DNA of 64,000 nt. Source: Homoserinibacter gongjuensis. Its GTDB lineage: Bacteria > Actinomycetota > Actinomycetes > Actinomycetales > Microbacteriaceae. The notes under the pieces are model-generated. The model searched no databases. It had not been told where the DNA came from and saw only the letters and a program-made list of their open reading frames with translations. The stretch is taken from contig NZ_BSVA01000001.1 of assembly GCF_030161875.1 (NCBI RefSeq), positions 2,914,001-2,978,000 of the forward strand, in the 5' to 3' direction. Made by a program: the position numbers and the translations under genes. Positions 41,835 to 58,368 of the stretch are shown piece after piece (position 1 is the stretch's first letter; each line of letters starts with the position of its first letter).

Positions 41835-43385
41835 CTACTTCTTCTTGCGCCCGCGGCCAATCAATCGCTTCAGAGGGTTTCGCGACTCCAGGATGCCGGC
41901 CGTCTCGAGGGACGAGCGAACGGTGCCGGAGATCCTGACATTCGGCCACATCGCCAGCGCGGTCTTTGCTCGGGTCTTCTGCACGCTGGTGAGCACGCTG
42001 GCCACCGTAGCGAGGATCTCGTGCGCAAGGGGTCCGTCGACGCCACGGGCTTTCCCCTGGAGTGTCGCGAGCGCTTCCATCGCGACACGGGCCTTATCAG
42101 GGGTGGTCGGCAGCGTCCCGAAGTCGGTGAGGCCCGCGCGCCGGGCGCCGATAGAGGCGCCAACGGTGAGCTGCTTGGCCACCTGATCATAGAGATCGGC
42201 GGAGGGACCGTCGGCGATGATCAGAGTGAGGGTAGTGGCCGGAAGGCCAGTGTTGGAGGACAGCCTCCAGGCGACGGCCCGATCGGCCGGGGTGACCAGC
42301 TTCGACCAGGCAGACCAGTCCGCATTCGTGATGATCGAGAGCGCGATGACGTCGGCGGCCGCCTCCACTTCGTCGGCGGCGGGTCCGGTGCGCAACCACT
42401 CCGGCGCAATTGAATCAAGCGCGGTCGTCGGGATCGTTTCGGCAACGTCGACCCAGGCAAGGTGGTCGATGGCGATGCCGCGGGCGACCTGCCGCAGCTG
42501 GAGCCGGATCATGGCACGCACCTCCGGGGCGGTGAGGTTGCGCTCGTTGCGCTCGACGCCCAGGCGGGCGGCGAGCAGGTCAACGCGGCTATCCGCAGCG
42601 GAGTCGATCAATTCGATCGCAGGTTGAAGTGCGGCTTCAGGGGTCGCGGTCGCAAGTGCCCACTGGACGAGTCCCGCCCAGTGAGCGGCGGCGTCGACGG
42701 CAGGAAGACCGTCGAGGGCGTCGACCAGGGCGATCCTGGCTCCGAGGGCGGCCTCGGTGAAGGTCTTCGCCTCGGTCGGCTCGACGGCGGCGGCGACCTC
42801 GGCGGGGGTAGCCTCACCGGTCAGCGGCGACGGGCAGGCGGCGCGAATGGCCATGACGATAGTGACGGCATCGTCCAGGAGTCCGTCGGCCTCCGGCTCC
42901 TCCAGGGCCCAGGCGACGGTCGCAGCGATCGCGGCGCCACTGCGCGCCCTGTCGAGGCCGACCCCCGCGGGTAGCAGGTCGAGCCAGCGCACCTCGGCGA
43001 GTTCGGGCAGATCGATGATCGCGTCGAGGGCCTCATCGCCGGCGACCTCGGCAGCGACGGTGTCGCGGTCGTGGACGAGTCTCGCGTCGTGGAGGTCGAG
43101 CGCCCAGGCACTGTCTGGGTCGACGCGGCGCAGGGCGCTGAGCAGGGCGCCCCGCAATTGCCGGCCGGTCGGCAGCGCGTCCCAGTCGGCGATGAGGTCG
43201 GCGAAGTCTTCGGCAGCCTGCTCGTTGTGCGCGTCCCGTGCGGCCTGGAGCTGCGCCTCGCGCTCGGCGGTGACGGCGCGGCTAGGGGTGCCGGAGGCTC
43301 CTCGGCGGGTTCATCCGGCGGCGAGTAGGCGAGTGCGAGTCGCTCAATCTGCGCCTCGGTGAGGCTCGCGCGGGTCTCGGTGCCA
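41835..43385 (-). CDS. Unrecognised alpha-helical protein, 5' end lost at a junction, frameshift near 43312
   Basis: An open frame of 440 codons from 43157 extends upstream without a start (AEREAQLQAARDAHNEQAAE, DFADLIADWDALPTGRQLRG). After one frame change near 43312 it reads RIGTETRASLTEAQIERL up to the junction with the FAH gene at about 43390. Composition is Ala-rich, acidic and helical, ending in a basic tail (RNPLKRLIGRGRKKK). There are no signal peptide, membrane helices or known motifs. It is probably an N-terminally truncated phage- or island-derived gene; I assign no function. Confidence 0.5.
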
Positions 43386-43399
43386 ATCCGGGCGTGTCG

Positions 43400-44163
43400 G
43401 GAATGCCGAGAGCGACCCCGGCCGGGGTTCCCGTGTTGATCACGTCGCCCGGGTAGAGCACCATGAACTGGCTCAGATACCAGACGAGGTGCGCCACCGG
43501 GAAGATCATGTCGGCGGTCGTCCCCTCCTGGCGGACCACCCCGTTCACGACGAGCCGCAGGGCGAGAGCCTGCGGATCCTCGATCTCGTCGACGGTAACG
43601 AGCGTCGGCCCGAAAGGGTTGAAGGTCTCGCAGCTCTTGCCCTTGCCCCACTGACCGCCGCGCTCGAGCTGGAACTCCCGCTCCGACACGTCGTGCGACA
43701 CCGCGTATCCGGCAACGTGGCGGATCGCCTCCTCAGGGGAGGCGGCGTACCGCACCTCCGACCCGATCACGACCCCCAGCTCGACCTCCCAGTCGGTCTT
43801 CGTCGAACCCCGCGGGATGCGCACCTCGTCGTAGGCACCCACGAGGGTCATCGGATCCTTCAGGAACACGATGGGTTCCGCGGGGAGGTCGGCCCCCGTC
43901 TCGGCCGCGTGGTCGCGGTAGTTGAGGCCGATGCAGACGACCTTCCCGGGTCGTGCGATCGGGGCGCCCACCCGGAGGCTCATCGCATCCGGAAGCTCTG
44001 CCAGGGCTCCGACCCCATGGGCCTCGCGGACGAGGGCGGTACCCCCGCGGGCGAAGAACGCCCCGTCGAGGTCGTCGGTGATGCTGCGCAGGTCGAAGAC
44101 CGTGCCTCCGGCGTGCAGCACGGGGATCTCCGTGCCCCGCTCCCCCAGTCGTCCCAGTCTCAT
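43400..44163 (-). CDS. Fumarylacetoacetate hydrolase-family protein, 3' truncated by fusion
   Basis: ATG 44163 follows AAGGAG. The protein reads GKVVCIGLNYRDHAAETGAD, EPIVFLKDPMTLVGAYDEV, DWEVELGVVIG and GDVINTGTPAGVALG, the FAH fold with its metal ligands (E..E...D region). After about residue 254 the family tail (roughly 30 residues) is replaced by unrelated sequence, marking a recombination junction. In L-fucose and L-rhamnose oxidation related enzymes cleave the 2,4-diketo-3-deoxy acid to pyruvate and lactate. The stop of the aldo/keto reductase overlaps its ATG. Confidence 0.82.
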
Positions 44164-45059
44164 CCGTGTTCTCCTTCTGTTTCGAGTACCGCGTTCCACA
44201 GTCCCTCGGCATCCCCCTGAGCTTCTGCGGCGCGCACATTGGCCCGCACCTGATCGGCCGACTCGGCACCCAGAACGACAGAGGCGACGGGGGCCGGGTG
44301 CCGCGCGAACGCGATCGCCGCCTGCGGCAGGGTGTAGCCGAAGCGTGCGCTCAGCTGAGCGAGTTCGCCCGCCCGCTCGACGACCGCATCCGGCGCGACC
44401 GTGTAGTCGAAGCGACCCCCGGCGGCGGGGTGCGGTGTGGCCAAGATCCCGCTGTTGAAGACGCCGACGTTCAGGATCTGCACGCCGCGGTGTTCGCACA
44501 ACGGCACCAGTTCATCGAGGGCGGAATGGTCGAGCATGGTCAGCCTGCCTGCCACCATCACCACATCGACGTCGGTCTCGCGCACGAATCGCACGAGGCT
44601 CGGCAGATGTCTGCTGCCGACCCCGATCGCGTCGACGATGCCCGCGGAACGCATCCGCTCGAGTTCGGGGTAGGCGGCGGTCAGCGCCTCGTCGAGGTGC
44701 CCCTCCGGGTCGTGCACGAGTGCCGTGTCGACACTGTCGAGGCCGAGCCGCCGGAGCGAGCTCATGAGAGAGGTGCGCACGCCGTCGGCCGAGAAATCCC
44801 AGGTGCGGGTTCTGCCGCCGTCGATGTCGACGATGAGGCGCCCGACTTTCGTGCTGAGCCGGTACTGCTCGCGGGGTCGGTGGCGCAGCGCCGTACCGAG
44901 GCGCTCCTCGGCGAGCCCCAGACCGTAGTGGGGCGCCGTGTCGAAGAGGCGGATGTCGCACGCCCAGGCGGCGTCGACTATCGCCGTCGCAGTGTGCTGG
45001 TCGAGCGGTTCGAAGAGGTCGCCGAGTTGGGCGGTACCCAGGCCGAGATCGGTGCCCAT
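44160..45059 (-). CDS. Aldo/keto reductase, D-threo-aldose (L-fucose) 1-dehydrogenase-like
   Basis: The 299-residue protein reads LGLGTAQLGDLFEPLDQHTA, IRLFDTAPHYGLGLAEERLG and EQYRLSTKVGRLI, so the catalytic Asp, Tyr and Lys are present, then DSVDTALVHDPEGH. This matches the D-threo-aldose 1-dehydrogenase branch, which oxidises L-fucose to the lactone with NAD(P). The start may be ATG 45059 or 45062, since the preceding gene ends within ATGATG. It is the first oxidation step proposed for the cluster. Confidence 0.85.
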   Translation of the reverse strand: MGTDLGLGTAQLGDLFEPLDQHTATAIVDAAWACDIRLFDTAPHYGLGLAEERLGTALRHRPREQYRLSTKVGRLIVDIDGGRTRTWDFSADGVRTSLMSSLRRLGLDSVDTALVHDPEGHLDEALTAAYPELERMRSAGIVDAIGVGSRHLPSLVRFVRETDVDVVMVAGRLTMLDHSALDELVPLCEHRGVQILNVGVFNSGILATPHPAAGGRFDYTVAPDAVVERAGELAQLSARFGYTLPQAAIAFARHPAPVASVVLGAESADQVRANVRAAEAQGDAEGLWNAVLETEGEHG

Positions 45060-45871
45060 CATGCGGCGATCCCGTACACGCGTGCGGCGGTGCCCCCGAG
45101 CAGGAGCGCGCGCTCGTCGCGGCTCCCGGGCGACGTCGCCTCGACCAGCCGCCGCCACGCCCCACCGCCGTGCAGGGTCGAGACGGGCCAGTCGGATCCG
45201 GCCATGAGACGTGACGGGCCGAAGGCGTCGCCGACGGTGGCCAGCATTTCGGGGAGATCGGCCGCGAAGACGGCATCCCCCGACACCTTCAGGTGCGCCC
45301 CGTCGACCGCCGCCAGCTCGCGGATACCGGTGCGCCAGCAATCCCGGAGCCCGCCCGGGGTGGGGCCGCCCAAGTGGTCGACGACGACCGTCAACCCCGG
45401 AACGGCGCGGCCGACCGCGGCGAGCGCCGGCAGCGCCCCCTCGTCGGCGAGCACCTCGACCACGAGGCCGAGATCGCGCAGCGCGGCGAACGCGGTCGTC
45501 ACGTCGCGACTCGCCCACCCCTCGGCGTCGGCACCGACCGCCGAGACGCGCACGCCGCGCAGCAGTTCGCCGCCCGGTGCGTTACGCAGCAGGGCGACTC
45601 TCTCCTGCGCTCCGGGGGCGAACGGGTCCACACTCCCCACCACCGCACCGATCCGTTCCGACCGCGAAGCCACTTCGAGCAGGCGGCGGTCTCCCGCGGC
45701 CGTCTCCTCGGCCGCGACGAGAACCGCCCTGTCGACACCTGCCAGGTCGAGTTCGTGCTCGAGCTGCTGGATGCCGAACGGTCGCCGGATGCCGGCGGCG
45801 GCATCTGCCCGCAGCCAGGGCGCGTCGAGCAGTTCGTGGCCCCAGACGTGCGTGTGCGCGTCGACGAGCAT
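45059..45871 (-). CDS. Amidohydrolase-family sugar lactonase (L-fuconolactonase-like)
   Basis: The 270-residue protein starts MLVDAHTHVWGHELLDAPWL (HxH metal motif). It contains AVLVAAEETAAGDRRLLEVA, VVVDHLGGPTPGG and LMAGSDWPVS (the conserved Asp/SDWP of the COG3618 group). The family hydrolyses sugar lactones such as L-fucono-1,5-lactone. It sits 2 bp after the RraA-like gene and overlaps the aldose dehydrogenase, its expected partner. Confidence 0.85.
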   Translation of the reverse strand: MLVDAHTHVWGHELLDAPWLRADAAAGIRRPFGIQQLEHELDLAGVDRAVLVAAEETAAGDRRLLEVASRSERIGAVVGSVDPFAPGAQERVALLRNAPGGELLRGVRVSAVGADAEGWASRDVTTAFAALRDLGLVVEVLADEGALPALAAVGRAVPGLTVVVDHLGGPTPGGLRDCWRTGIRELAAVDGAHLKVSGDAVFAADLPEMLATVGDAFGPSRLMAGSDWPVSTLHGGGAWRRLVEATSPGSRDERALLLGGTAARVYGIAA

Positions 45872-45873
45872 GG

Positions 45874-46665
45874 TCAGGCGAGCGGTAGGCGACCGGCGTC
45901 GCGCCACGCCTCGTACTCGGCGCGGCTGTCGGGGCTGAGCGGGTAGTAGTCCGAGAGTCGCGCGCCCTGGTCGAGGCGCATCCGGCTGAACTCCTCCCAG
46001 TTCTCGTGATCCTCGGCCGACTGCACCAACTCGAGCGCCTTGCCCGCGGGCACGATCACGGCGCCGTCGTCGTCGGCCACCACCACATCCCCGGGGAGGC
46101 ACAGCACGCCTCCCGCGGCGACCGGCACGTCGTACGCCCACGGGAACTGGTCGGTCTGCGATGCGTAGTGGGGCGTCGTGCCGGTGCACCAGATCGGCAC
46201 CCCGAGTTCGCGCACCCGCGCGGCGTCGCGGATGCGGCCGTCGACGACGATGCCCGCGCCTCCGCGACGCTTGAAGTAGCGCACCAGCATGTCTCCGAAG
46301 CACCCGGTGAAGGGGCTGCCGTTCGCCTGGACGACGAGAACGTCGCCCTCCTGCACCGTCTCGAGCACGGCCCACAGCGCCGTATGCCGTTCGACGTACT
46401 CCTGGCCGAGACCGGTGGCCACGTCTTCCCGCTGCGGCATGAACTGCAGCGTGAGCGCGGAGCCGACGACGCGGCTTCCCCGTTCGAGTGCGACGGGGCC
46501 CTCCACGTACGAGCGGCTGATCCCCATCCCCTGCAGCTTGGCGCACGCGGTCGCGGCGCTCACCGCCTCCATCCGCTGCAGGATGTCGGCGTCGGCGCGG
46601 TCGAAGCTGCCGCCGCGCACGGGCAGCGGCCACACGGCCGACGGGGATTCGAGGACGGTGTTCAT
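45874..46665 (-). CDS. RraA-family protein (4-hydroxy-4-methyl-2-oxoglutarate aldolase-like)
   Basis: The 263-residue protein contains ATACAKLQGMGISRSYVEG, GDVLVVQANGSPFTGCFGDM (in place of the G..GD..A motif), GIVVDGRIRDAARVRELGVP (D-G-R-RD catalytic residues) and PGDVVVADDDGAVIVPAGKA. The residues for Mg-dependent pyruvate aldolase or oxaloacetate decarboxylase activity appear present. Its substrate here is unknown; it could replace a missing aldol step of the deoxy-sugar route. ATG 46665 overlaps the upstream stop. Confidence 0.85.
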   Translation of the reverse strand: MNTVLESPSAVWPLPVRGGSFDRADADILQRMEAVSAATACAKLQGMGISRSYVEGPVALERGSRVVGSALTLQFMPQREDVATGLGQEYVERHTALWAVLETVQEGDVLVVQANGSPFTGCFGDMLVRYFKRRGGAGIVVDGRIRDAARVRELGVPIWCTGTTPHYASQTDQFPWAYDVPVAAGGVLCLPGDVVVADDDGAVIVPAGKALELVQSAEDHENWEEFSRMRLDQGARLSDYYPLSPDSRAEYEAWRDAGRLPLA

Positions 46666-48592
46666 GCTTTCTCCTGTTTCGTGGGGATATAGGTCTGGTG
46701 GGCCGCGACGTTCGCGCGGCGGGTGATGGTGAGTTGGAGGGCGATGCGCGTTCGAGGCGGCAGTACGACCTCGAGGCGGGATGAACCGATCCGATGCGTG
46801 CTCGAGGACGGAACCGTGGGCGGGATGGCGTAGCTGTGCGGGTCGCCGGGGTATCCGGGTGCCGCGCCGCTGTAGGTGACCTCGTCGATCGTGTCCTCGC
46901 CGAAGGCACCGGCCGTCAGCACGACGACACGTTCGGTGTCGCCGGTGTTGACGAGTTCCGCGGTGACGTCGTCTCCCCGGATTCCACTGACGAGCATCGC
47001 GACGCCCGGCGGCAGGCCGGGGCGCGACCGGTCGGCGTCGCCGACGGCGAGCCGGGCGAAGGTCAGGCCGCCGTAGTAGACGGCCGGTGGCGCGCCGGTT
47101 ACGAGTTGCGTGAGCACCTCGGTAACCACCGGGTTGAGGCGCTGCCAGAAGTGGATGTCGCCGTCCTCGGGTGCATCGGGCGCCTCGGCGATGAGGGCTC
47201 GCTGCCGCAGCACCTGGCCGATCGCCATCTCGAGCGCGCGCTCGGGGTAGTCGATGTTGCGGCCTTCGAGGTACTCATGCCAGGGCGCCTCATGCCCCTG
47301 CTCCTCCTTGTCGCGGAACCACCGCACGGCGCTCCAGTCCGATTCGGACGCCGCGTGCACGCGGGCGACGCGATCGCGATCGGTCTCGGCATCCGACACC
47401 CATCCGAGCCAGAGCAGGGGCGACAGCGGCACGGGGTGGAAGTCGAACCAGCCGTCGGGGCCGTGACGGTACGGCACCAGCAGCTCGCGGGTGTCGGGGG
47501 TCGCGCCGAGCTTCTCGGCCCATCCGGGGCCGAGGTTGCCGCGTTCCGCGATGCGATCCGACACCTCGGCATGGCCGAGCACGGTGTCGAGCGGATCCCG
47601 GGCCAGATCGAGCCGGTCGAGCTCGCCGGTGAGTACCACCGCGTTGAGCGACGCGACAGTCGCCGCGGCGCCGATCGAGTGCAGCCCGTGCGGCCACGTC
47701 CAGCCGTAGTGGCCACCCCACCACGCGCCGCCGTGAAGTTCGCCGACGGCACCCGTGGGGCCCACGTTGTCGGGCAGTGCTCCCCTGTTCGCGGCCGCAC
47801 GCTCGCGCCACGCGTCGATGTACTCGAGCGCCCACTCGGCGAACGCCGGCTCGTGGTCGTACAGCCAGGCGTTCACCGCGAGCGTCGTCGCGGCCAGGTT
47901 CACCACGGTGTCTCCACGCCCCATCCGGGTCTGCATCGCGGCACCCATCGCTGAGGCGGCCCCGGGGACGCGGAGGTCATCCCAGCTTCTGATGCCGTCG
48001 ACATCGTGCAACGGCAACCCGTAGGGCTCCATGCCCGGCTGCTCGGCTGAGTATCGGTCCCAGTCCTCGCCGACACCCCAGCGGGGTCCCTGCGATCCGG
48101 TGTGGGGGCCACGATCGTGCGGGTCGCGGCGTCGTAGTTACCGGTCGGCGAACCCGGCAGGTAGTAGCCCGCGAAGCGCCGAGCCCGGTCGCGGAACACC
48201 GCATCCGCCGGGTCCGCCGCGCAGATGCCCAGCAGCAGGCCGAGCGACTCCGCCTGATGGAACCAGTCGTAGCCGACCTCGTACTCGTCGGCGACGAACC
48301 CGAACTCGGTGAGCTGGAGGGTGACGCCCTCCCAGTGGTGCTTCGCTGCGGCGAGCAGCTCGTCGGAGCCGCCCAGCCGGTAGAGCGCCGGCCAGTTGAA
48401 GAACGGTTCGTAGAAGTCGTCGACACCGTCCCGCCCGTGCATCCGGCCGCCGTAGCGCAGCCTGCCATCCAGCTCGCAGAAGCGCCGCTCGAACTCGCGC
48501 CACCCCTCCTCGAGCAGGTCGAACAGCGTACGCTCCAGCACCGCCCATCGGGGAAGCTCCCGCAGCGGCTCGGATGCGCGCAGGCGGGTCAT
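46662..48592 (-). CDS. Uncharacterised 643-residue helical-barrel protein of the sugar operon, one frameshift near 48108
   Basis: The N-terminus (MTRLRASEPLRELPRWAVLE, then DFYEPFFNWPALYRLGGSDE and VGYDWFHQAESLGLLLGI) and the C-terminal part (NAWLYDHEPAFAEWALEYID, GHYGWTWPHGLHSIGAAAT) are in different frames, joined by one lost G in the G5 run at about 48108. Paired aromatic helices suggest an (alpha/alpha) barrel of glycosidase type, followed by a beta-sandwich tail (AELVNTGDTERVVVLTAGAF). There is no signal peptide, so it is cytoplasmic. It overlaps RraA and the permease by ATGA. A glycosidase acting on imported oligosaccharide is a guess. Confidence 0.65.
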
Positions 48593-49419
48593 CCCTTGAC
48601 CGCCCCCGAGGTGAGGCCGCCGATGATGCGCTTCTGCAGCAGCACGTAGAAGATGATCACGGGCGCGACCGCGAGCAGCATGTTCGAGTACACGATCGTG
48701 AAGTCGGTCGAGTACTTGCTGATCGCCGAGTAGACGCCCGTCGTCACCGTGTAGATGCCGGAGCCGGGGCCCAGGATGATGCGCGGGTTGACAAAGTCCG
48801 ACCACACGCCCACCGCGTTCAGCACCACCGCGGTGGCGACCGCCGGCCGCATGAGCGGGAAGATCACCCGCCAGAAGGTGCCGAGGCGCGAGGCGCCGTC
48901 GATGCGGGCCGCCTCGTCGAGTTCGCGCGGAATGCTCTGCACGAAGGCGGTGAACAGGAACAGCGTCGTTGGGATGGTGAGGGCCGTCTGGAAGAGCACG
49001 AGCCCGGGCAGGGTGCCCATCAACCCGAGGGTCTTCAGCACGTAGATGACGGGGATCACGATCGTCTGGCTGGGGATGAACAGGCCCGCCAGCATCACGA
49101 GCAGCACGATGCGGTGCCCGCGGCGCACACCCCGCGCGATCGCGTACGAGGCGGGGCCGGCGACCAGCACCGACAGCACATTGACGACGATGACGAGCAG
49201 CGCCGTGGTGCCGTAGGCCCCCACCACGTTGAAGTCGGTGGAGGTGGCGGCGCGCCACAGGTTGTCGAGCGTGAAGCCGTCGTCGGGCCAGCCGAACGGC
49301 GAGCCCACGATGTCCTGCTGGGTTTTGAAGGCGTTGGTGACCAGCAGGTACAGCGGCGCGAGCATCGCGACGCCGATCAGCACGAAGGCGGCGGTTCGCA
49401 GCGTGCGGCGCGCGATCAT
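48589..49419 (-). CDS. ABC sugar transporter permease, MalG type
   Basis: The 276-residue protein has six membrane helices (TAAFVLIGVAMLAPLYLLVT first) and the EAA loop ELDEAARIDGASRLGTFWRV, which contacts the ATPase. It belongs to the carbohydrate uptake CUT1 family. It overlaps the MalF-type permease and the 643-residue gene by ATGA. No ATPase gene is in the cluster, so a shared MsiK/UgpC-like ATPase elsewhere must serve it, as is common in actinobacteria. Confidence 0.92.
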   Translation of the reverse strand: MIARRTLRTAAFVLIGVAMLAPLYLLVTNAFKTQQDIVGSPFGWPDDGFTLDNLWRAATSTDFNVVGAYGTTALLVIVVNVLSVLVAGPASYAIARGVRRGHRIVLLVMLAGLFIPSQTIVIPVIYVLKTLGLMGTLPGLVLFQTALTIPTTLFLFTAFVQSIPRELDEAARIDGASRLGTFWRVIFPLMRPAVATAVVLNAVGVWSDFVNPRIILGPGSGIYTVTTGVYSAISKYSTDFTIVYSNMLLAVAPVIIFYVLLQKRIIGGLTSGAVKG

Positions 49420-50378
49420 GCCGACACCGCCAGTTCGCTGCGGCGACGCAACTGGGTGAGCACGACGGTGACCGTGATGATGACGACCATCAGAACGACC
49501 GACTGCGCAGCCCCGTAGCCGAGCTGCGAGCGGCTGAACGAGGTGGTCAGGATGTTGAACACGACCGTTTGGGTCGTCCCCGCGGGCCCGCCCGCGGTGA
49601 GCGCCAGCACGATTTCGTAGACGCGCAGCAGGCCGATCGCGGCGAGCACCACGTTGAGGGTGACGGTCGGGGCGAGCACCGGCAGCTTCACGCGCCAGAA
49701 CGTCTGCCAGGGGCTGGCGCCGTCGATGACGGCCGCCTCGATGAGCGAGTCGTCGAGGGTCTGCAGACCCGCCAGGTAGAGCACGACGTTGACGCCGAAG
49801 CTCGCCCAGATGATGACGAGGAGGGTGGTGACCATCGCCCACGTCGGGTCGGCGAGGAAGGGCAGACGCTCGGCACCCAGGTTGGTGAGCACCGAGTTGA
49901 TGGCGCCGTTGCTGCCGAGGATCGACGACCAGAGGAACCCGAGGATGATCGGGCCGATCACGTAGGGAGAGAAGACGAGCACACGCATGACCGTGTTGAC
50001 CCGCGTGTTGCGGTTCAGCAGCACCGCAATGCCGAGCCCGAGCGCGTTGCAGGCGATCGTACCGACCACCGCGATCACAGCGGTGAACGCTGCAGCCCGC
50101 AGCACATCCGGGTCCTGGAACAGGCGCGTGTAGTTGCGCGCGCCGATCCAGTCGGGCGGGATGGTGAAGCCGTCCCAGTCGGTGAAGCTGAGGTACACGG
50201 CGATGCCGATGGGGATCAGCACGAACGCCACGACGAGGGCGAAGGCGGGCCCGATCATGACCGCGTCGGTCATGAGGTCGGTGCGCGCGGCGCGACGCCG
50301 CCGGGATGAGGTGGCCGGGGCCGGCGGGGCGGCCGAAGCCACCCCGCCGACTCCGACCGGTGCGTTACTGCGCGGCAT
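49416..50378 (-). CDS. ABC sugar transporter permease, MalF type
   Basis: The 320-residue protein has an N-terminal helix (MIGPAFALVVAFVLIPIGIA), YLSFTDWDGF, and the EAA loop LIEAAVIDGASPWQTFWRVK. It pairs with the following MalG-type permease. Its start overlaps the end of the binding-protein gene by 14 bp, which supports one transcript. Confidence 0.92.
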   Translation of the reverse strand: MPRSNAPVGVGGVASAAPPAPATSSRRRRAARTDLMTDAVMIGPAFALVVAFVLIPIGIAVYLSFTDWDGFTIPPDWIGARNYTRLFQDPDVLRAAAFTAVIAVVGTIACNALGLGIAVLLNRNTRVNTVMRVLVFSPYVIGPIILGFLWSSILGSNGAINSVLTNLGAERLPFLADPTWAMVTTLLVIIWASFGVNVVLYLAGLQTLDDSLIEAAVIDGASPWQTFWRVKLPVLAPTVTLNVVLAAIGLLRVYEIVLALTAGGPAGTTQTVVFNILTTSFSRSQLGYGAAQSVVLMVVIITVTVVLTQLRRRSELAVSA

Positions 50379-51605
50379 TCAGATCCCACCACGAGTCGAG
50401 CGCAGCCGCGGCGTCCGCGGGGCTCGTTCCGACGTACAGCGCCTGCACCTGCTTGTTGACCTCGTCGCCGAAGCCGCCGGGGATGCCGGGGCCGGACGTG
50501 CCGAGCACGAGACCCGGCGACGCGTCGAGGATCGCCGCGACCTCCGTGTTGAGCGCGCTGCCCTCGTACGAGACGCCCTGACGGAAGTTGCCCTCGGATG
50601 CGAGAGAGGTGGCGATCGCCTCCGGGTCGGACACGAGGTACTCGACCAGGTCGAGCGCGAGCTCGTGGTGCTTCGAGCCCTGCATGATCGAGTACGGCTG
50701 CGCCGGCCCGCTCAGCTGGCCGGTGGGCGAACCGTCGAGCGACGGGGTCGCGAAGACGCCCACCTCGAAGTCGGTCGCCGCCTCGTCGAGTGTCGGCACG
50801 ATCCAGTTACCGATGATGTAGCTGGCGGCAGCACCGGAGGTGAAGCCGTCGATCGAGTCCTGGTACTTGAATCCCAGGGCGGCCGGGTCGACGAGGCCAT
50901 CGGCGATCCAGCCCGAGTAGGCCTCGAGGTAGTCGGCGTAGGCGCTGTCGGCGAAGGTCGCGTCCCCTGCCGTGCGCTCGGCGTAGAAGTCGCCGTCGGC
51001 GAGCAGTTCGGGGTTGGCGAGCATCGCGAACTGCGCGCCCGTCACCCACTCGCCGGCGGTCTGCAGCGGCAGGTAGCCGGCATCCTTCAGCTTCTGCAGG
51101 TCGGCGGTGAAGTCGTCGAGGCTGGTCGGCAGCTCGTCGATGCCCGCGGCGGCGTAGGCGTCCTTGTTGTAGAAGACGAGCGACTGGATCTGGGCGCCCG
51201 TGGCGACCTGCCAGATCTTGCCGTCGACGCGGTTCTGCTCGGCGAGCGGGGTGTCGAGCACCCAGTCTTCTTCGGGGAAGGCGAGCAACTGGGGGCCACG
51301 ACGGGGTCGAGGTTGCTGGCGACGACGTCGGGCACGTCGCCGGATGCGAGCTCCTGCTGCAGGGTCGCCTGCACGTTCTCGGCGCTCGGCACCTCGATCG
51401 TGATGGTGACGTTCTCGTGCTCGTCGAGCCAGGGCTGAACGAGCTCCTCGTAGTACTCCTTCGTGAGAACGGGGGTGATGTTGGCGAGGATGCGGAGCTC
51501 GGTCGTCTCCGACCCGCCCCCATCCGCCGCGCATCCCGTCAGCAGGCCGGCCGTGAGGGCGGTGCTGGCGAGGACGGCGGCTGCGCCTCGGGTGCTGTGT
51601 CGCAT
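50365..51605 (-). CDS. ABC sugar-binding lipoprotein (extracellular solute-binding family 1), one frameshift near 51295
   Basis: ATG 51605 follows AAGGAGG. A lipoprotein signal with lipobox LLTGC is followed by TELRILANITPVLTKEYYEE and SGDVPDVVASNLDPVVAP. One G is lost in the G5 run near 51293. The next frame gives LLAFPEEDWVLDTPLA, KIWQVATGAQIQSLVFYNKD and SLDDFTADLQKLKDAGYLPL, the typical family-1 binding-protein core. Intended length is 413 residues. It is the first gene of the minus-strand operon and has a perfect 24-bp palindrome just upstream. Confidence 0.9.
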
Positions 51606-51624
51606 GAATCCTCCTTGATCTGGA

Positions 51625-51648
51625 CAATCGCCTATCGATAGGCGATTG
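51625..51648. promoter_or_regulatory. Perfect 24-bp palindromic operator upstream of the sugar operon
   Basis: CAATCGCCTATC followed by its exact reverse complement, 20 bp before the binding-protein ATG. The half CTATCGATAGGCGATTGG is matched by sites at 52364 and 52746, the other two island promoters. It is the most likely binding site of the GntR protein. Confidence 0.75.
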
Positions 51649-51681
51649 GAACACTAACGCGCCGACGCCGAGACGGCAAGT

Positions 51682-52328
51682 TCAGCGCGCGTCGTCGCTG
51701 TCGAGGCCACCGGACGCATGCTCGGCGAACATCGCCGCCGCCGCATCCGGGTCTCCCGCGAGCAGGGCATCGACCAGCTCGATGTGCCACGCGACCACGC
51801 GTCGGCGGTCCCCTAGATAGGCGGGGTCGCCGATCGCCCGCTGGCTGACGAGCACCGGCTCGAGCGTGTCCCACATGCGTGCGAGCACCGCCAGTCCGGT
51901 CGACGCGATCACCGAGCGGTGGAACTCCACGTCGAGCGTCCGGAAGGTCGCCCAGTCGTCGGCGTCGACCGCCTGCTGCATGCGGGTGGTGATCGAGCGC
52001 AGCATCGCGATCTCCGCCGACCCGACCTTGCCGGCCGCGAGGTGGGCGCCCTTCGCCTCGAGGGTTGCCCGCATCTCGCGCGCGATCGCGAACTCCTCGG
52101 GCGAGATCTCGGTGACGTAGCTGCCGTGCCGCGCAACCGACACGACGAGCCCGGCATGCACGAGCCGCTTCACCGCCTCGCGCACCGGCGCCTGACTGAT
52201 GCCCAGCTGCCGGGCGATCTCCGACTCGACCACCCGCGAACCAGGCGCCCTGCTCCCATCGAGGATCGACGCGAGGATCAGGTCGTACACCTGATCCGAG
52301 AGCAGCCCCTGCTGATTGACTCGGCCAT
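51682..52328 (-). CDS. GntR-family regulator (FadR/FCD type), one frameshift near 52310
   Basis: ATG 52328 has AAGGGG 5 nt upstream; one G lost in the run after SISRG joins it to LLSDQVYDLILASILDG. The winged helix (VESEIARQLGISQAPVREAV, KRLVHAGLV) is followed by the all-helical FCD ligand domain (REMRATLEAKGAHLAAG, LDVEFHRSVIASTG, WHIELVDALLAGD), whose His/Asp residues bind a metal-ligand complex. It is encoded between the two transcription units it probably controls and likely senses a sugar acid from the pathway. Confidence 0.88.
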
Positions 52329-52363
52329 CGTCGCCCCTTCGCCTGTATATGCTGCGAGCAACA

Positions 52364-52380
52364 CTAGCGATAGTCGATTG
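52364..52380. promoter_or_regulatory. Second GntR operator copy (CTAGCGATAGTCGATTG)
   Basis: The site lies between the divergent GntR and mutarotase genes and resembles CTATCGATAGGCGATTG at 51632-51648 (15 of 17 positions). GntR autoregulation is implied. Confidence 0.55.
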
Positions 52381-52389
52381 GGAGCTTTC

Positions 52390-52710
52390 GTGGGCACGGT
52401 CATCGAGGGGTTCCGCACCCGGCTGAGGCCGGGCGCGGCCGACGACTACAGGCGCGTCCACGCCAGCATCCCCGAGCCGCTCGCCGCCGCCCTCGAAGAG
52501 TGTGGGCTCGTGAGCTGGCGCATCTGGATCGACGGCGAGACCCTGTTCCACGCGATCGAGACCCGCGACGGCCGAGAGACGATGGTGGAGCGGATGATGC
52601 GGCTGCCGCCGGTCGACCCCGAATGGGACGCACTCATCGACACCCTCGTCGACCCCGCGCCCGAGTCGGCATCCGCTCTGGATTCGGTGTGGGAGTTCGT
52701 TGCCCGTTGA
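52390..52710 (+). CDS. L-rhamnose/L-fucose mutarotase (RhaM family)
   Basis: The 106-residue protein reads GFRTRLRPGAADDYRRVHAS, IPEPLAAALEECGLVSWRIW, IDGETLFHAIETRDGRE and WEFVAR, the compact RhaM/DUF718 fold with its active-site His and Tyr. GTG 52390 follows GGGAG. The enzyme interconverts the anomers of L-rhamnose or, in related clusters, L-fucose, so that the dehydrogenase receives the right form. It is divergent to GntR. Confidence 0.87.
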   Translation: MGTVIEGFRTRLRPGAADDYRRVHASIPEPLAAALEECGLVSWRIWIDGETLFHAIETRDGRETMVERMMRLPPVDPEWDALIDTLVDPAPESASALDSVWEFVAR

Positions 52711-52745
52711 CGCGACCGCGGTCGGGCCGTAGCGTGTGGTCATTG

Positions 52746-52764
52746 TTTTCGATAATCGATTAGT
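52746..52764. promoter_or_regulatory. Third, weaker GntR operator copy (TTTTCGATAATCGATTAG)
   Basis: It shares TCGATAnTCGATT with the sites at 51632 and 52364 and lies about 15-30 bp before the start of the secreted beta-helix gene. Confidence 0.45.
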
Positions 52765-52774
52765 GATTGGGTCA

Positions 52775-55509
52775 ATGATGATCTTCACCGCTCGCCGCAT
52801 CCGAGTCGTCGCCGTGGCTGTCGCCGCCGCCTTGCTGTGCACCCTGCTCCCCCAGACCCCCGCCTACGCGACGGGCGGCGCCACCTACTACGTGAGCACC
52901 AGCGGCTCCGACACCAACGCGGGGACCAGCACCGGAGCCGCGTTCCGCAACGTGCAGAAATGCGCCACCGTGATGATCGCCGGCGACACCTGCCAGATCG
53001 CTGCCGGCACCTACCGCGAGAAGGTCGCGCCCACCGCGAACGGCACCGCCACCAACCGGATCACCTACGTCGCGGCGCCCGGCGCCCGTGTCGTCATCGA
53101 CGGCAGCGACGTCGTCACCGGATGGTCGGCGGTGACGGCGGGGCAGCTCGCCACCCTCCAGACCGCCGACTCGACACTCGTCGGCTCTGAGTTCGCAATC
53201 GCCGTGGGGGCCGGACGCGTCTACCGCGCATCCGTCTCCCCCACCGCCGGGCTGCCCGGTCTGCAGGTGTTCGTCGACGATGCGATGCAGCCCGAGGCTG
53301 CCTGGCCCCACGCCGGAAACAACCCGGCAGAGCCTGTGCTCGCGTCGGCTCAGTCGGGCACCACCACCTCGCTCTCCGACTCCGCGCTCACGCAGCCGGC
53401 CGGCTGGTGGGTGGGGGCCCGACTCACGTCGCACAACTGGTTCGTCAGCGAAACCGGCACGGTCACCAGCTCGAGCGTCGGCACCGTCACCGCGAGCAGC
53501 CTCCCCGCCTGCGTGGGCCTCAGCCCCAACCAGACCAACCGCTACTCGCTTTCGAACAAGCTCGCCCTGCTCGGCAGGGCCGGCGAATGGCACTACCGCG
53601 CAGCCGATGGCTACCTCTACGCGTGGATGCCCGACGGGGCCAGCCCCTCGGGCCACGTTGTCGAGCTTAAGAAGCGCGACATCGCCTTCGACCTCTCGGG
53701 GCGCTCGTACACGACAGTGCTCGGCCTGGGCCTGAAAGCCGCCACCATCACCACCTCGTCGACCTCGCACCACCTCGTGCTCGACGGCCTCACCGCCCGC
53801 TACGTGTCCGCCTACAGCGACCTCACCATCGACCCGAACAAGGTCACAGGCCCGGACGCGTGCGATGTGCTCACCGCGGGTGAGACCACGAGCGGCATCC
53901 AACTGCGCGGGTCGGCGAACACCCTGCGCAACAGCACCATCGACTGGAGCGCCGGCAACGGCGTGATGGTCGCCGGCTCGGGGAACACCGTCACCAATAA
54001 CCGCATCACCAACGCCAACTACATGGGCAGCTACGCCGCCAGCATCAACCTGCTCGGCGACGGCCACCTCATCAGCCACAACACGGCGTGGGGCAGCGGA
54101 CGCAGCAACCTCAACATCGACAACAAGGTCGCCGGCACCACCTCGGCCAACCACCTCATCCGCTACAACGACTTCGGCGACTACGGCAAGCTCGTGAACG
54201 ACGTCGGCGCCATCTACGTCTGCTGCCGCGTCAACATGGCCGGAACGGTCATCGACCACAACGCGCTCCATGACGCCGCACCTGGCGTCGCCGCCGAGGG
54301 CCCGCTCCCGGTGTCTACCTCGACCTCGAGACCTACAACGCGACCGTCGCCGACAACGTCGCCTGGAACCGCACCACCTACGGCGTCGTGCTGATCAACC
54401 CGAACGGCGGCACCAGCTCGGGCAACAAGATCTACGGCAACACGAGTGGAACCGATTCGAAAGCGGTGAGCCTGTTCGGCGGCACGTACTCGACCTCCGA
54501 GATCAAGAACAACATCGGCACCGTCGACACCGCATCCGGGGTGACCGTGAGCAACAACCTGCCCAACACGACGAACCCGCAGTTCACCAACGCCGCTGCC
54601 CTCGACTTCACTGTCGGGTCGGGCTCGCCCGCACGCAACGCCGCGGCCGTGCTCAGCCCGTGGACGGATGGCTCCACCGATGCGACGCCGACCATCGGCG
54701 CGTACCAGTACGGAGCCCCGAAATGGGTCGCCGGTGCGCGCAGCGTCGGCAGCACGATCCAGGCGGAGTCGTACGCCTCCTCCTCGGGGGTCACCACCCG
54801 CTCGGCGGGCACCGGCACCGTGTTCGGCAGTTTCGATGGAGGCGACTGGGTGCGGTACGCGGGCGTGCAGTTCGGCAACGGCCGCACCATGTTCGAGGCC
54901 ACCCTCGCCACTGAGGTGAACTACGCCGGCCAGCGGTTCCAGATCCGCATCGACTCGGCCACCGGCCCCGTCATCGGCACGGCCACCGTCGACTCGACGG
55001 GCAGCTTCAACCGCTTCACCACCCAGTACACGCCGATCGTGCCGACCAGCGGCACCCACGACGTGTACCTGATTGCCCTCGGGAGCGGACCAGGCGTCGG
55101 CGACGTCGACACGATCGCCTTCACCCGCACGCCCGCGAAGGTGGATGCGGAACGCGCGGATGCGAGTTCCGGCACGACCACCGCATCCGGCGCCACCGGC
55201 GCGTTCGTCGGATCGTTCGACGGGGGCGACAGCCTCACCTTCCGCTCGCTCGACTTCGGCATCGGCCGCACCTCGCTCGCGGTGGCTCTCGCCGTCGACC
55301 CCGCCTACGCCGGTCAGACGTTCGCGGTGCGACTCGACAGCGCCTCGGGCACCACAATCGGGACGATGACGGCAGCCTCCACCGGGTCGTGGACCCGCTT
55401 CCTGACTCAGACGCTGCCCATCACGTCGACGACCGGCATGCACGACGTGTTCATCGTCGCGACCGGTGGTGCGGGCATCGCCAACATCGACTGGATCTCG
55501 CTCGAGTAG
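52775..55509 (+). CDS. Secreted right-handed beta-helix protein with two CBM6-type modules, one frameshift near 54303
   Basis: A Sec signal peptide (VVAVAVAAALLCTLLPQTPA) leads into TYYVSTSGSDTNAGTSTGAA and AGTYREKV, the opening of pectate-lyase-like beta-helices. Many coils follow (GIQLRGSANTLRNSTIDWSA, GNGVMVAGSGNTVTNNRITN). One C is lost near 54303; restoring it gives SPGVYLDLETYNATVADNVA. Two C-terminal modules (IQAESYASSSG with FGSFDGGDWVRYAGVQFG; VDAERADASSG with VGSFDGGDSLTFRSLDFG) match CBM6. Intended length is 911 residues. It is probably the polysaccharide lyase or glycosidase that supplies the sugar operon. Catalytic residues are not identified. Confidence 0.82.
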
Positions 55510-55526: not shown

Positions 55527-55973
55527 TCACACCCCGTTCCCGTGGCGCAGTATCTCGGGATGGAGGCGAATCCACACCACGCTCACCAGTGGCCCGTTGA
55601 AATCCACGGTGATCAGTGCGGCGGCTTCGCCGTCGCGGGTGAGAAGGAGACCCGCCTGACTGTTGACCGACCGTGGAGTGATCTTGAGACCCGCACGTTT
55701 GCCCATCCCGTGTACAAGCAAAGTTGTCGCGTCCTTCACGCCGTACGTGACCCTCGCGCCGGACGCGCGCACGTCCTGCGACTCCACGACGACAGCGACT
55801 TTGGGATCCAGGATCTCTGAGAGCCGGTGCTCGTCGCCACTCTCTGCGGCGAGCCAGAGTTCTCGCACCGCACGAGAGTGAATCGGGCGAGCGAGCCATT
55901 CCCATGCGACCGACCACGCTCGATGCACAGTCGGCAACCGGTCCTGGGAAGTCGATCTCGATGCAACTGACAT
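55527..55973 (-). CDS. NTF2-like protein resembling the C-terminal domain of ECF41 sigma factors
   Basis: ATG 55973 follows GGAGG at a loose spacing of about 9 nt. The 148-residue product reads RELWLAAESGDEHRLSEILD, KVAVVVESQDVRASGARVTY, GVKDATTLLVH and VNSQAGLLLTRDGEAAALIT. That layout is like the SnoaL-type tail of ECF41/SigJ factors but without sigma regions 2 and 4. An N-terminal basic segment replaces them, so it may be a remnant. Function unknown. Confidence 0.6.
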   Translation of the reverse strand: MSVASRSTSQDRLPTVHRAWSVAWEWLARPIHSRAVRELWLAAESGDEHRLSEILDPKVAVVVESQDVRASGARVTYGVKDATTLLVHGMGKRAGLKITPRSVNSQAGLLLTRDGEAAALITVDFNGPLVSVVWIRLHPEILRHGNGV

Positions 55974-56431
55974 TTGAGTTTCACCTCCACCAATGAAGAC
56001 CATCCGAAGGCGGCAACTGTGACTAGATCCGCAGCGCAGCTGACAGAATCTCTCGACGCTGCGTCGTGTCCGACGTCGAAGCCACCGGTCGGTGCTCGCG
56101 GACTTTCCAAGAGAAGGGGCTGCTGTCTGAGTGGTGCTGATGTCGGGCCGGTGTCGCAGAGCGGTCACTGCCGTTGGTGGCCAGCGGCGGCGTTGCAGTA
56201 CGCAACGATGTCGGCGGGCAGCTTTCCGTCGGCGTAGCCCTTTCTCAGCCACGAGAGGGTCCGCAGCTCGCGTGACTCGGCGGGGTCGCCGGAGCCGTAT
56301 CGCGGCTGTCGCTCGTGCGCGAATGGCGCTGGGATCAGAAGGATCCAGCGCAACGATTCGACGGCGACCCGTGCGCGCCGCGTCGGTTGCTGATGGGTTC
56401 TGGATCAGGTACCAAGCGCGAAGCCGAGTGG
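55974..56431 (-). other. Gene remnants beside the IS left end
   Basis: No intact gene is seen. On the minus strand the piece STRLRAWYLIQNPSATDAAR runs from the IS boundary. Near 56165-56300 another frame reads SRELRTLSWLRKGYADGKLP then ADIVAYCNAAAGHQRQ and a stop. Together these look like the 3' part of a gene cut by the insertion and by frame loss. The remainder (55974-56160) holds nothing I can support. Confidence 0.35.
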
Positions 56432-57832
56432 AGTCCCGCATAGTGGTGTAACTGCACGGTGGTCGTCGAGGTCGTTGCCGACGTAGACGCGGTCACCGTG
56501 TGATCCTTCGAGAAAGCTCTCTACTTCTCACTCGAAAGGTGTCATCACGATGACCGCTCCCCATATTGTCGACCCCGCGACCGTGCTCGGTGAAGTGCTC
56601 GCCGACGCGTCTCCGGATTTGATGCGGCATCTGCTGCAGACGATGATCAACGCCCTGCTGTCCGCCGACGCGGATGCGGTGGTCGGCGCTGAGTGGGGTC
56701 AGCCGTCCCCTGCCCGCACGACGCATCGCAACGGCTACCGCCACCGCGAGCTGGACACCCGCGCCGGCACGATCGATGTCGCGATCCCGAAGCTGCGCTC
56801 GGGCACCTACTTCCCGGAGTGGCTGCTCGAGCGGCGGAAGCGGTCCGAGGCGGCGTTGATCACGGTGATCGCCGACTGCTACCTCGCCGGCGTCTCCACC
56901 CGCCGGATGGACAAGCTCGTCAAGACCCTCGGCATCCATGCGCTGTCGAAGTCGCAGGTGTCGCGGATGGCGACCGAGCTCGACGAGCACATCGCCCAGT
57001 TCCGGCACCGGTCGCTCGCGGAAGCTGGCCCGTTCACGTTCGTCGCCGCCGACGCCCTCACGATGAAGGTCCGCGAAGGCGGCCGGGTGGTCAGCACGGT
57101 GGTGCTGATCGCCACCGGCGTCAACGGCGACGGCCGCCGCGAGGTCCTCGGCCTCACGGTCGCCACGAGCGAGACCGGCCCGGCCTGGAACGCGTTCTTC
57201 GCCGACCTCGTCGCCCGCGGCCTCACCGGCGTCCAACTCGTCACCAGCGACGCACACGCAGGGTTGAAGGACGCGATCACCGCAAACCTCCCCGGCACCA
57301 CCTGGCAACGCTGCCGCACCCACTATGCCGCGAACCTCATGTCCGTGACACCGAAGAGCATGTGGCCCGCGGTCAAAGCGATGCTGCACTCCGTCTATGA
57401 CCAGCCCACCGCCGCCGACGTCCACGCCCAGTTCGACCGCACCCTGGACTACGTCACCGACCGGCTGCCCGCGGTCGCCGAGCACCTCGAGACCGCCAGG
57501 ACCGACATCCTCGCGTTCACCGACTTCCCGAGAGACGTCTGGGCGCAGATCTGGTCCAACAACCCCAACGAGCGGCTCGACCGCGAGATCCGCCGCCGCA
57601 CCGACTCCGTCGGCATCTTCCCCAACCGCGACGCGATCATCCGCCTCGTCGGCGGCGTCCTCGCCGAGCAAACCGACGAATGGGCAGAAGGCCGCCGCTA
57701 CCTCGGACTCGACGTCCTCACACGCTCCCGCATGCGCGCACTCCCCAACAACGAAAGCGAGGCGACCACCGACACCATCATCGCGCTCAGCGCCTAACCG
57801 AAGGACCAGCCGTTACACCACCCCCAGGGACT
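56432..57832 (+). mobile_element. IS256-family insertion sequence, about 1.4 kb
   Basis: The ends share the inverted repeat AGTCCC-N5-GTGGTGTAAC (56432-56452 and complement of 57812-57832) with identical internal spacing. One transposase gene fills the element. I could not find a matching 8-9 bp target duplication, so either one flank has changed or the exact ends differ by a few bases. It is inserted next to a subtilase-like fragment. Confidence 0.75.
56550..57797 (+). CDS. IS256-family DDE transposase
   Basis: The 415-residue transposase is intact. It has THRNGYRHRELDTRAGTIDV, IPKLRSGTYFPEWLLERRK, LVKTLGIHALSKSQVSRMA and the DDE triad D168 (VAADALTMKV), D234 (VTSDAHAGLKDA) and E341 (NNPNERLDREIRRRTD, with the conserved RR-T-D block). 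WQRCRTHYAANLM is also typical of the family. It cuts and pastes the element through a copied circle. No lost base is apparent in this gene. Confidence 0.95.
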   Translation: MTAPHIVDPATVLGEVLADASPDLMRHLLQTMINALLSADADAVVGAEWGQPSPARTTHRNGYRHRELDTRAGTIDVAIPKLRSGTYFPEWLLERRKRSEAALITVIADCYLAGVSTRRMDKLVKTLGIHALSKSQVSRMATELDEHIAQFRHRSLAEAGPFTFVAADALTMKVREGGRVVSTVVLIATGVNGDGRREVLGLTVATSETGPAWNAFFADLVARGLTGVQLVTSDAHAGLKDAITANLPGTTWQRCRTHYAANLMSVTPKSMWPAVKAMLHSVYDQPTAADVHAQFDRTLDYVTDRLPAVAEHLETARTDILAFTDFPRDVWAQIWSNNPNERLDREIRRRTDSVGIFPNRDAIIRLVGGVLAEQTDEWAEGRRYLGLDVLTRSRMRALPNNESEATTDTIIALSA

Positions 57833-58283: not shown

Positions 58284-58294
58284 GTTACGTTACG

Positions 58295-58368
<74 letters not shown>

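Follow-up and report, generated by a model that had tools for sequence, protein, structure and literature searches.

A probable agl3-type operon in Homoserinibacter gongjuensis as a candidate module for importing and beginning to oxidise an L-fucose-like sugar

We analysed 64,000 nucleotides of the Homoserinibacter gongjuensis contig NZ_BSVA01000001.1 (positions 2,914,001 to 2,978,000; this whole stretch is called the window, and cluster coordinates count from its first base), in which a group of sugar-related genes ends at position 55509. Our reading, to which we give a probability of about 55%, is that this group represents a widespread actinobacterial agl3-type operon, importing and starting to oxidise an L-fucose-like sugar by a route that is finished in trans. 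On the minus strand, genes with overlapping or abutting ends encode, in order, a binding protein, two CUT1-like permeases, a 643-residue protein (hereafter the orphan), an RraA-family protein, an amidohydrolase-2 lactonase, an aldo-keto reductase (AKR) and a FAH-family hydrolase; a GntR/FCD regulator is encoded upstream of the binding protein on the same strand, with a mutarotase and a beta-helix/CBM6 protein on the plus strand. A preliminary description had seen here a module for non-phosphorylating deoxy-sugar oxidation, a view that our results support; the gene content and coordinates that it gave agree with open reading frame positions and Pfam, and the cluster itself indeed contains neither a sugar-acid dehydratase nor an SDR.

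Conservation of the module in other genomes shows that the cluster is more than a chance assembly. A scan of named genomes yielded at least 559 confirmed relatives of the orphan, of which the best 80, a choice leaning towards close relatives, were analysed at the locus level, gene presence being scored by tblastn (E ≤ 1e-8) with the window proteins as queries. Across these 80 loci, permease 2 was found in 73, permease 1 in 70, RraA in 67, the binding protein in 64, the GntR regulator in 61, the lactonase in 57, the AKR in 53, the beta-helix protein in 12, the mutarotase in 5 and the FAH in 3. In 65 of the 80, the next gene after the orphan on its strand is RraA; the other 15 consist of two loci (L079 and L116) with RraA elsewhere and 13 without it, among them L063 and L104, which are cut off by a contig end no more than 55 bases away. 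The constant core is the importer, the orphan and RraA. Among the 56 loci that have an adjacent RraA and span 20 kb or more, the AKR is present in 43 and the lactonase in 49, and 47 have at least one of four extracellular-type proteins (by Pfam labels, GH95 in 17, GH141-like in 19, a window-type beta-helix in 8 and a long beta-helix in 20); GH95 and GH141 are counted among fucosidase families (PMC10154630). In our sample of 299 genomes of the family, the orphan occurs in 15, one of which (G130) has only a short weak match with an internal stop.

Some features of these loci were set aside or form a separate group. Apparent fusions of the orphan to a permease (very long frames in L032, L033, L034 and L036) were rejected, their N-terminal parts being unlike permeases and looking like out-of-frame extensions, as were six antisense protein clusters (c15, c18, c22, c31, c33 and c34), for which tblastn places RraA, the AKR or a permease on the opposite strand. 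A second orphan subfamily, with 33-35% identity to the first and no RraAS2-type protein, occurs in L039, L040, L041, L043 and L044; a gene for L-fuconate dehydratase (FucD) is close by in L040, L041 and L043, on the same contig in L039 and not close in L044. A sulfatase gene lies nearby in L039, as if for sulfated fucose.

The preliminary description held that the dehydratase and the second dehydrogenase are absent, a claim that fails at the genome level. The search that it had proposed for an enolase-family dehydratase and an SDR recovered both about 1.1 Mb from the window cluster, within a second locus on the same contig (1,834,669-1,845,666). FucD, at 1,834,669-1,835,970, has L-fuconate dehydratase 1yey as its best PDB match (E 8.8e-182), which rules out that the organism lacks the dehydratase. 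Near it are encoded an AKR recognised as a 184-residue piece only, a lactonase, a binding protein, permeases, a FAH that is split in two frames and 77% identical to the window FAH over 144 residues, and, adjoining this FAH, a candidate L-KDF 4-dehydrogenase of the SDR type (61% identical to the SDR of locus L119, described below), for which none of the 25 NCBIfam models listed exceeds its cut-off; an RraA-family protein of the same locus is more distant from the window RraA (29% over 162 residues). Judging from these homologies, the route can be complete in trans, with its dehydratase, FAH and SDR encoded elsewhere in the genome. The second locus (L046:3679-19670, about 1.83-1.85 Mb) also holds genes for a type III CoA-transferase, a binding-protein-like protein and, judged by eye, a MaoC-like protein; 10 of the 80 orphan loci contain relatives of this CoA-transferase. 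An importer without its own ATPase is ordinary and not an unusual trait; a MsiK/MalK-like ATPase gene is present at 1,678,217-1,679,290 of the same genome. The "unusual composition" of the cluster is thus explained by enzymes in trans together with the broken junction discussed below.

The orphan and FucD also tend to occur in the same genomes. At E ≤ 1e-80, FucD was detected in 110 of the 299 family genomes, namely in 14 of the 15 that carry the orphan and in 96 of the 284 that do not (Fisher p 4.9e-6, uncorrected for kinship). Five of these 15 genomes have the second subfamily only; restricted to the window's subfamily, the comparison gives 9 of 10 against 101 of 289 (p 6.8e-4, again uncorrected for kinship). 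In the named genomes that carry the orphan, FucD was found in 21 of 24 (E ≤ 1e-100) and 47 of 50 (E ≤ 1e-60), thus 68 of 74, a count that leaves out the genomes of L121, L123, L125, L126 and L128 and takes L062 and L063 as one genome. In 26 genomes (24 named ones, G000 and G228), the SDR was present in 25 at E ≤ 1e-79 and the FAH in 24 at E ≤ 1e-90. The orphan-RraA pair therefore usually accompanies FucD rather than replacing it. Of the earlier proposal that RraA and the 643-residue protein define a variant route, the conserved unit stands, whereas the pattern is not one of replacement, although one clear exception, described below, would allow it.

Within the cluster, Pfam cut-offs are passed by the FAH, AKR, lactonase, RraA, permeases, mutarotase and GntR/FCD regulator. 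Going against the direction of transcription on the minus strand, the FAH-family hydrolase (43384-44163; FAA_hydrolase) keeps 260 of about 283 residues, its C-terminal end being lost at the junction, and its nearest solved structure is 8gsr, an L-2,4-diketo-3-deoxyrhamnonate hydrolase (E 2.9e-60). Then come the AKR, a candidate L-fucose/D-threo-aldose 1-dehydrogenase (44160-45062; Aldo_ket_red), the candidate L-fucono-1,5-lactonase (45060-45871; Amidohydro_2), the RraA-family protein of the Agl3Y/RraAS2 type (45874-46665, 263 aa; RraA-like, with NCBIfam PRK08245 above cut-off), the Agl3X-type orphan (46662-48592), permease 2 and permease 1 at the Agl3G and Agl3F positions (48589-49419 and 49416-50378; BPD_transp_1), the sugar-binding protein at the Agl3E position (50365-51605) and the Agl3R-type regulator (51682-52353; GntR and FCD). 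The binding protein comes in two pieces, the larger matching SBP_bac_1 above cut-off and the smaller falling short of it with 21.5 bits (cut-off 26). On the plus strand, the RhaM-type mutarotase (52357-52710; rhaM, E 4.3e-15) precedes the beta-helix/CBM6 protein (52778-55509; Beta_helix and CBM_6 on two pieces), which by the look of its N-terminus would be secreted. Beyond the cluster, a minus-strand open frame at 55527-56441 without a Pfam match has a C-terminal half that resembles, by eye, a protein adjoining the same operon in L122.

The two window pieces of the orphan match nothing in Pfam or NCBIfam, 48 aligned members give no convincing Pfam assignment (six families turned up, none in more than two members; best E 0.028), and its profiles have no credible match among PDB chains (best E 0.62 with 13 sequences; with 48, nothing up to E 10). 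For the L117 homologue, AlphaFold2 gives a confident model (pLDDT 89.5, pTM 0.91), with helices to about residue 490 and beta strands after that. Foldseek returned 322 hits, four of them at E ≤ 0.001; the best (3.9e-4) is a Thioredox_DsbH-domain protein, and the next neighbours are N-acylglucosamine-type 2-epimerases and GH76 enzymes, with TM values among the 50 hits listed of up to 0.54 by target length and at most 0.36 by query length. These neighbours belong mostly to the (alpha/alpha)6-barrel class but are all remote; the helical domain is probably such a barrel, followed by a C-terminal beta domain. To the N-acylglucosamine 2-epimerase superfamily and GH76 the likeness is structural only (e.g., cellobiose 2-epimerase 5zhb, TM 0.54 by target and 0.36 by query), as the orphan shares no sequence match with them and carries the additional beta domain. 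The model fits a glycosidase or epimerase without proving it, and a dehydratase would also be compatible, linalool dehydratase having an (alpha/alpha)6-type barrel as well.

The RraA protein links the module to a studied operon of Streptomyces coelicolor. It matches PDB 5x15 with E 5.5e-128 (76.7% identity to the chain segment) and 3noj with E 3.5e-20, and the RraA adjoining the orphan in Streptomyces sp. MH60 (L112) is 98.0% identical to 5x15 over 249 residues. The PDB record names 5x15 only as a putative transferase; we take it to be S. coelicolor RraAS2. RraAS2 is SCO7163, which is reported to bind and inhibit RNase ES (PMC10126417), Agl3EFG are SCO7167-SCO7165 (PMC3924187), and the operon is given as agl3EFGXYZ, repressed by Agl3R and GlnR and derepressed through both at low carbon/high nitrogen (PMC10704036). 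That operon thus has a GntR regulator, a binding protein, two permeases and three further genes, and the window is alike, with its regulator, binding protein and two CUT1-type permeases in agl3 order and its RraA two genes past the last permease, the numbers SCO7163 and SCO7165 being likewise two apart. In L112, the order is GntR regulator, then binding protein-permease-permease-orphan-RraA-AKR-SDR-lactonase. From the published gene numbers and this order, by analogy, the orphan should be Agl3X (SCO7164) and RraA should be Agl3Y (SCO7163).

RraAS2 has been studied as an inhibitor of RNase ES, and an enzymatic role of its subfamily is only putative. The window RraA has, from residue 125, the motif D-X20-R-D, which is the metal/pyruvate motif of RraA-family class II aldolases; it recurs in 65 of 67 RraA relatives, the other two having, by eye, E for D. 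Of two motifs that serve metal binding and catalysis, most homologues are reported to have one (PMC5065237). The HMG/CHA aldolase equivalog models are not reached (107.8 against 179 and 99.2 against 304.5), and the window RraA shares its family with the HMG/CHA aldolase 3noj (PMC5065237), with 5x15 and with FlDet, described as a KDGR dehydratase/decarboxylase (PMC8563752). In the limited collection of literature that we searched, no report of RraA in an L-fucose operon was found. A 595-residue frame that matches both RraA and FAH, likely a fusion, occurs at L168:8282-10069; its surroundings, judged by eye, resemble a homoprotocatechuate degradation locus, so that RraA and FAH would be paired there in a different pathway.

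Taken together, these assignments lead us to propose the following order of steps. The beta-helix/CBM6 protein would act on an extracellular polymer, and the CUT1-type importer would take up a small saccharide containing L-fucose or a similar sugar, with energy from a shared MsiK-like ATPase. Inside the cell, the Agl3X-type orphan may work on this saccharide, glycosidase or sugar epimerase being its most likely activity, after which the mutarotase, AKR and lactonase would convert the sugar to L-fuconate. Enzymes of the second locus could then dehydrate, oxidise and cleave L-fuconate to pyruvate and L-lactate, and RraA would be a metal-dependent enzyme, most likely an aldolase, with a 2-keto acid of the route as its substrate.

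Several observations speak against this proposal. Of the 65 loci with an adjacent RraA, 14 lack the AKR, 8 the lactonase and 3 both in the fetched stretch. The window RraA, at 263 aa, is about 100 residues longer than the 161-position E. coli-type model, which misfits the roughly 60 extra residues reported for RraAS2 relative to E. coli RraA (PMC10126417); the reported role of RraAS2 as an RNase ES inhibitor likewise speaks against an enzyme of sugar breakdown. The window AKR has L-galactose dehydrogenases as its best PDB matches (8scc, E 1.7e-27) and no NCBIfam match to any dehydrogenase of the non-phosphorylating L-fucose route. The lactonase (105.5 bits against the cut-off of 400 for NCBIfam L-fucono-1,5-lactonase; PDB 4dlf, E 1.9e-18) and the FAH (261.8 bits against 500 for its best NCBIfam model, 2,4-didehydro-3-deoxy-L-rhamnonate hydrolase, under which the full-length L119 FAH likewise falls with 301.5) are so far below the equivalog cut-offs that, by sequence, L-fucose is not proven over other galacto-configured sugars. 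The agl3 inducers reported in S. coelicolor, trehalose and melibiose (PMC3924187), speak against a pure L-fucose reading. Finally, the genome of Nocardioides marmorisolisilvae (G307) has no FucD match at E ≤ 1e-20.

This last genome bears on an alternative that we regard as rather improbable, namely that the orphan or RraA is itself the sugar-acid dehydratase, the operon being a self-contained variant made of the AKR, lactonase, Agl3X/Agl3Y, SDR and FAH. Four of the 26 genomes (G228, G306, G307 and G316) and three of the 50 (G372, a metagenome-assembled genome of Microbacterium, and G373 and G374, metagenome-assembled genomes of Chloroflexi) have no FucD, and G307 is the clearest exception. 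On one of its contigs (locus L103), it holds the AKR, binding protein, permeases, orphan, RraA, lactonase, GntR regulator, mutarotase and beta-helix protein, with the SDR and FAH further on, beside LutABC-like genes (Pfam); a full gene set including SDR and FAH therefore occurs without a recognised dehydratase. Its MR_MLE_C matches are two, the enolase and a protein that, from its MenD/MenE-like neighbours, we read as MenC, and it has one ILVD_EDD match, so that in this genome the missing step could fall to the orphan or to RraA; the completeness of this genome is not given. G228 also favours the alternative in that its best FucD match is 5.8e-22 and its FAH and SDR lie 10-12 kb from the module. 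Nevertheless, G228, G306 and G316 prove less than G307, as other MR_MLE proteins are present in G228 and G316, while G306 lacks an SDR at E ≤ 1e-30 and shows only a weak FAH (5e-44). In the AKR-lactonase-SDR-FAH run of L119, only the orphan and RraA remain unassigned, but that genome has FucD, as have the large majorities counted above. FlDet offers a precedent for dehydration within the RraA family, but its substrate is a 2-keto-3-deoxy acid and not an aldonate (PMC8563752). Tentatively, and with the odds somewhat against it, Agl3X may found a new barrel-fold enzyme family as the partner of Agl3Y, that is RraAS2, which would be sugar-catabolic by descent and operon context, the pair supplying, in some actinobacteria such as N. 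marmorisolisilvae, a sugar-acid dehydration or aldol cleavage for which the genome showed no enzyme of a known family.

No better placed, in our estimate, is the possibility that the substrate is a different saccharide (for example one resembling the inducers melibiose or trehalose, L-galactose, D-arabinose or an O-substituted fucose), with only the downstream enzymes in common with the L-fucose route. Both the published inducers (PMC3924187) and the proximity of the AKR to L-galactose dehydrogenases would be accommodated, and in Cellulomonas (L060) the module stands beside a second run of FAH, FucD, SDR and another AKR, which suggests different entry sugars. Against this, the strong co-occurrence with FucD and the GH95/GH141-like neighbours point to L-fucose or a sugar like it.

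The closest operon, L119 of Promicromonospora sp. MEB111, clarifies what the window has lost. It is a single run of binding protein, permeases, orphan, RraA, lactonase, AKR, full FAH and SDR, followed by a beta-helix gene on the opposite strand. Identity to the window proteins is 87% for permease 2 and RraA, 84% for permease 1, 72% for the binding protein, 68% for the FAH, 67% for the C part of the orphan and 61% for the AKR, with a partial lactonase match of 44%. In G228, which belongs to the window's own genus, the module proteins found are only 37-69% identical to those of the window, and the higher identity to L119 suggests transfer between families. By comparison with L119, the window appears to have lost the end of the FAH and the SDR. 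The L119 run is also without a dehydratase, FucD being elsewhere in its genome (G302), so that the absence of a dehydratase here need not mean loss. The earlier suggestion that the missing genes were deleted at the 43.39-kb junction is supported for the 3' end of the FAH and the SDR, which the junction explains, and not for the dehydratase; this loss may be tolerated because second copies exist.

At the junction itself (43379-43384), homology of the FAH stops at 43384, its alignment to the 283-aa L119 FAH ending at residue 260, and on the other side lies the remnant of a KAP P-loop NTPase-like gene (41835-43378, minus strand), outside the module and with an apparent frame change at about 43.19 kb. 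This 5'-truncated remnant has no Pfam match of its own; it corresponds to the C-terminal portion of a far longer KAP-type protein in G058, which does match KAP_NTPase. Among eight other genomes of the genus, one has such a long homologue. Genes on both sides of 43,384 thus appear to be cut, and the junction may be either a real deletion or an assembly join. After the cluster come a Mutator-type transposase gene (56550-57797, plus strand; Transposase_mut) and a tRNA-Pro(ggg) gene (58294-58368, minus strand), and the block between the truncated KAP gene and the transposase and tRNA genes looks like an inserted island.

The preliminary description took all genes as whole, which does not hold for four of them: besides the short FAH, the orphan, the binding protein and the beta-helix protein shift frame once each, at about 48.10, 51.29 and 54.30 kb. 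Three frame changes and a truncated FAH inside 12 kb might indicate a decaying pseudogene cluster without function in this strain; we hold this idea, which is compatible with the other readings, to be the least probable. One of the frame changes has no homopolymer of four or more bases nearby, as decay would allow, but the other two are at, or a few bases from, a run of five G. Moreover, split genes also occur in and around the second locus (the FAH, the binding protein, a Zn-alcohol dehydrogenase and two MR_MLE genes), and the genome, a single contig of 3,290,533 bases, is 89.77% complete. From these split genes and from a completeness of 89.8% in a single contig, we read the frame changes of the cluster as uncorrected indel errors of the assembly.

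The module joins three separate lines of work, on the agl3 operon with its uncertain substrate, on RNase ES inhibition by RraAS2 and on non-phosphorylating L-fucose breakdown. Should RraAS2-type proteins prove to be catabolic enzymes, their reading as RNase regulators would need a second look. The orphan family, for its part, is large (at least 559 matches), and with no assigned function found and a near-fixed partner, its activity can be searched with a short substrate list.

Among known systems, route 3 of L-fucose degradation (FucM-A-B-C-F-G) is outlined as proceeding through a mutarotase, dehydrogenase, lactonase and dehydratase, then an SDR and a hydrolase, to pyruvate and L-lactate (PMC11199699). 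The window holds candidate counterparts of its mutarotase, its dehydrogenase (the AKR), its lactonase and its hydrolase (the FAH), and the second locus those of the dehydratase and SDR; compared with route 3 as outlined there, the genes are split over two loci, the cluster's own FAH is truncated, and the orphan and RraA are extra. The fum locus of Bifidobacterium kashiwanohense, as listed in PMC6817895, resembles the window in its binding protein and two permeases with no ATPase listed, and in its mutarotase and lactonase, and includes the dehydratase too. It differs in its GH95 and GH29 fucosidases, its LacI regulator and a KDF aldolase where the module has the orphan and RraA (PMC6817895). 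The agl3-type module is thus already in print in parts, and what is new is the reading of two of its genes, those of the orphan and of the RraAS2-type protein.

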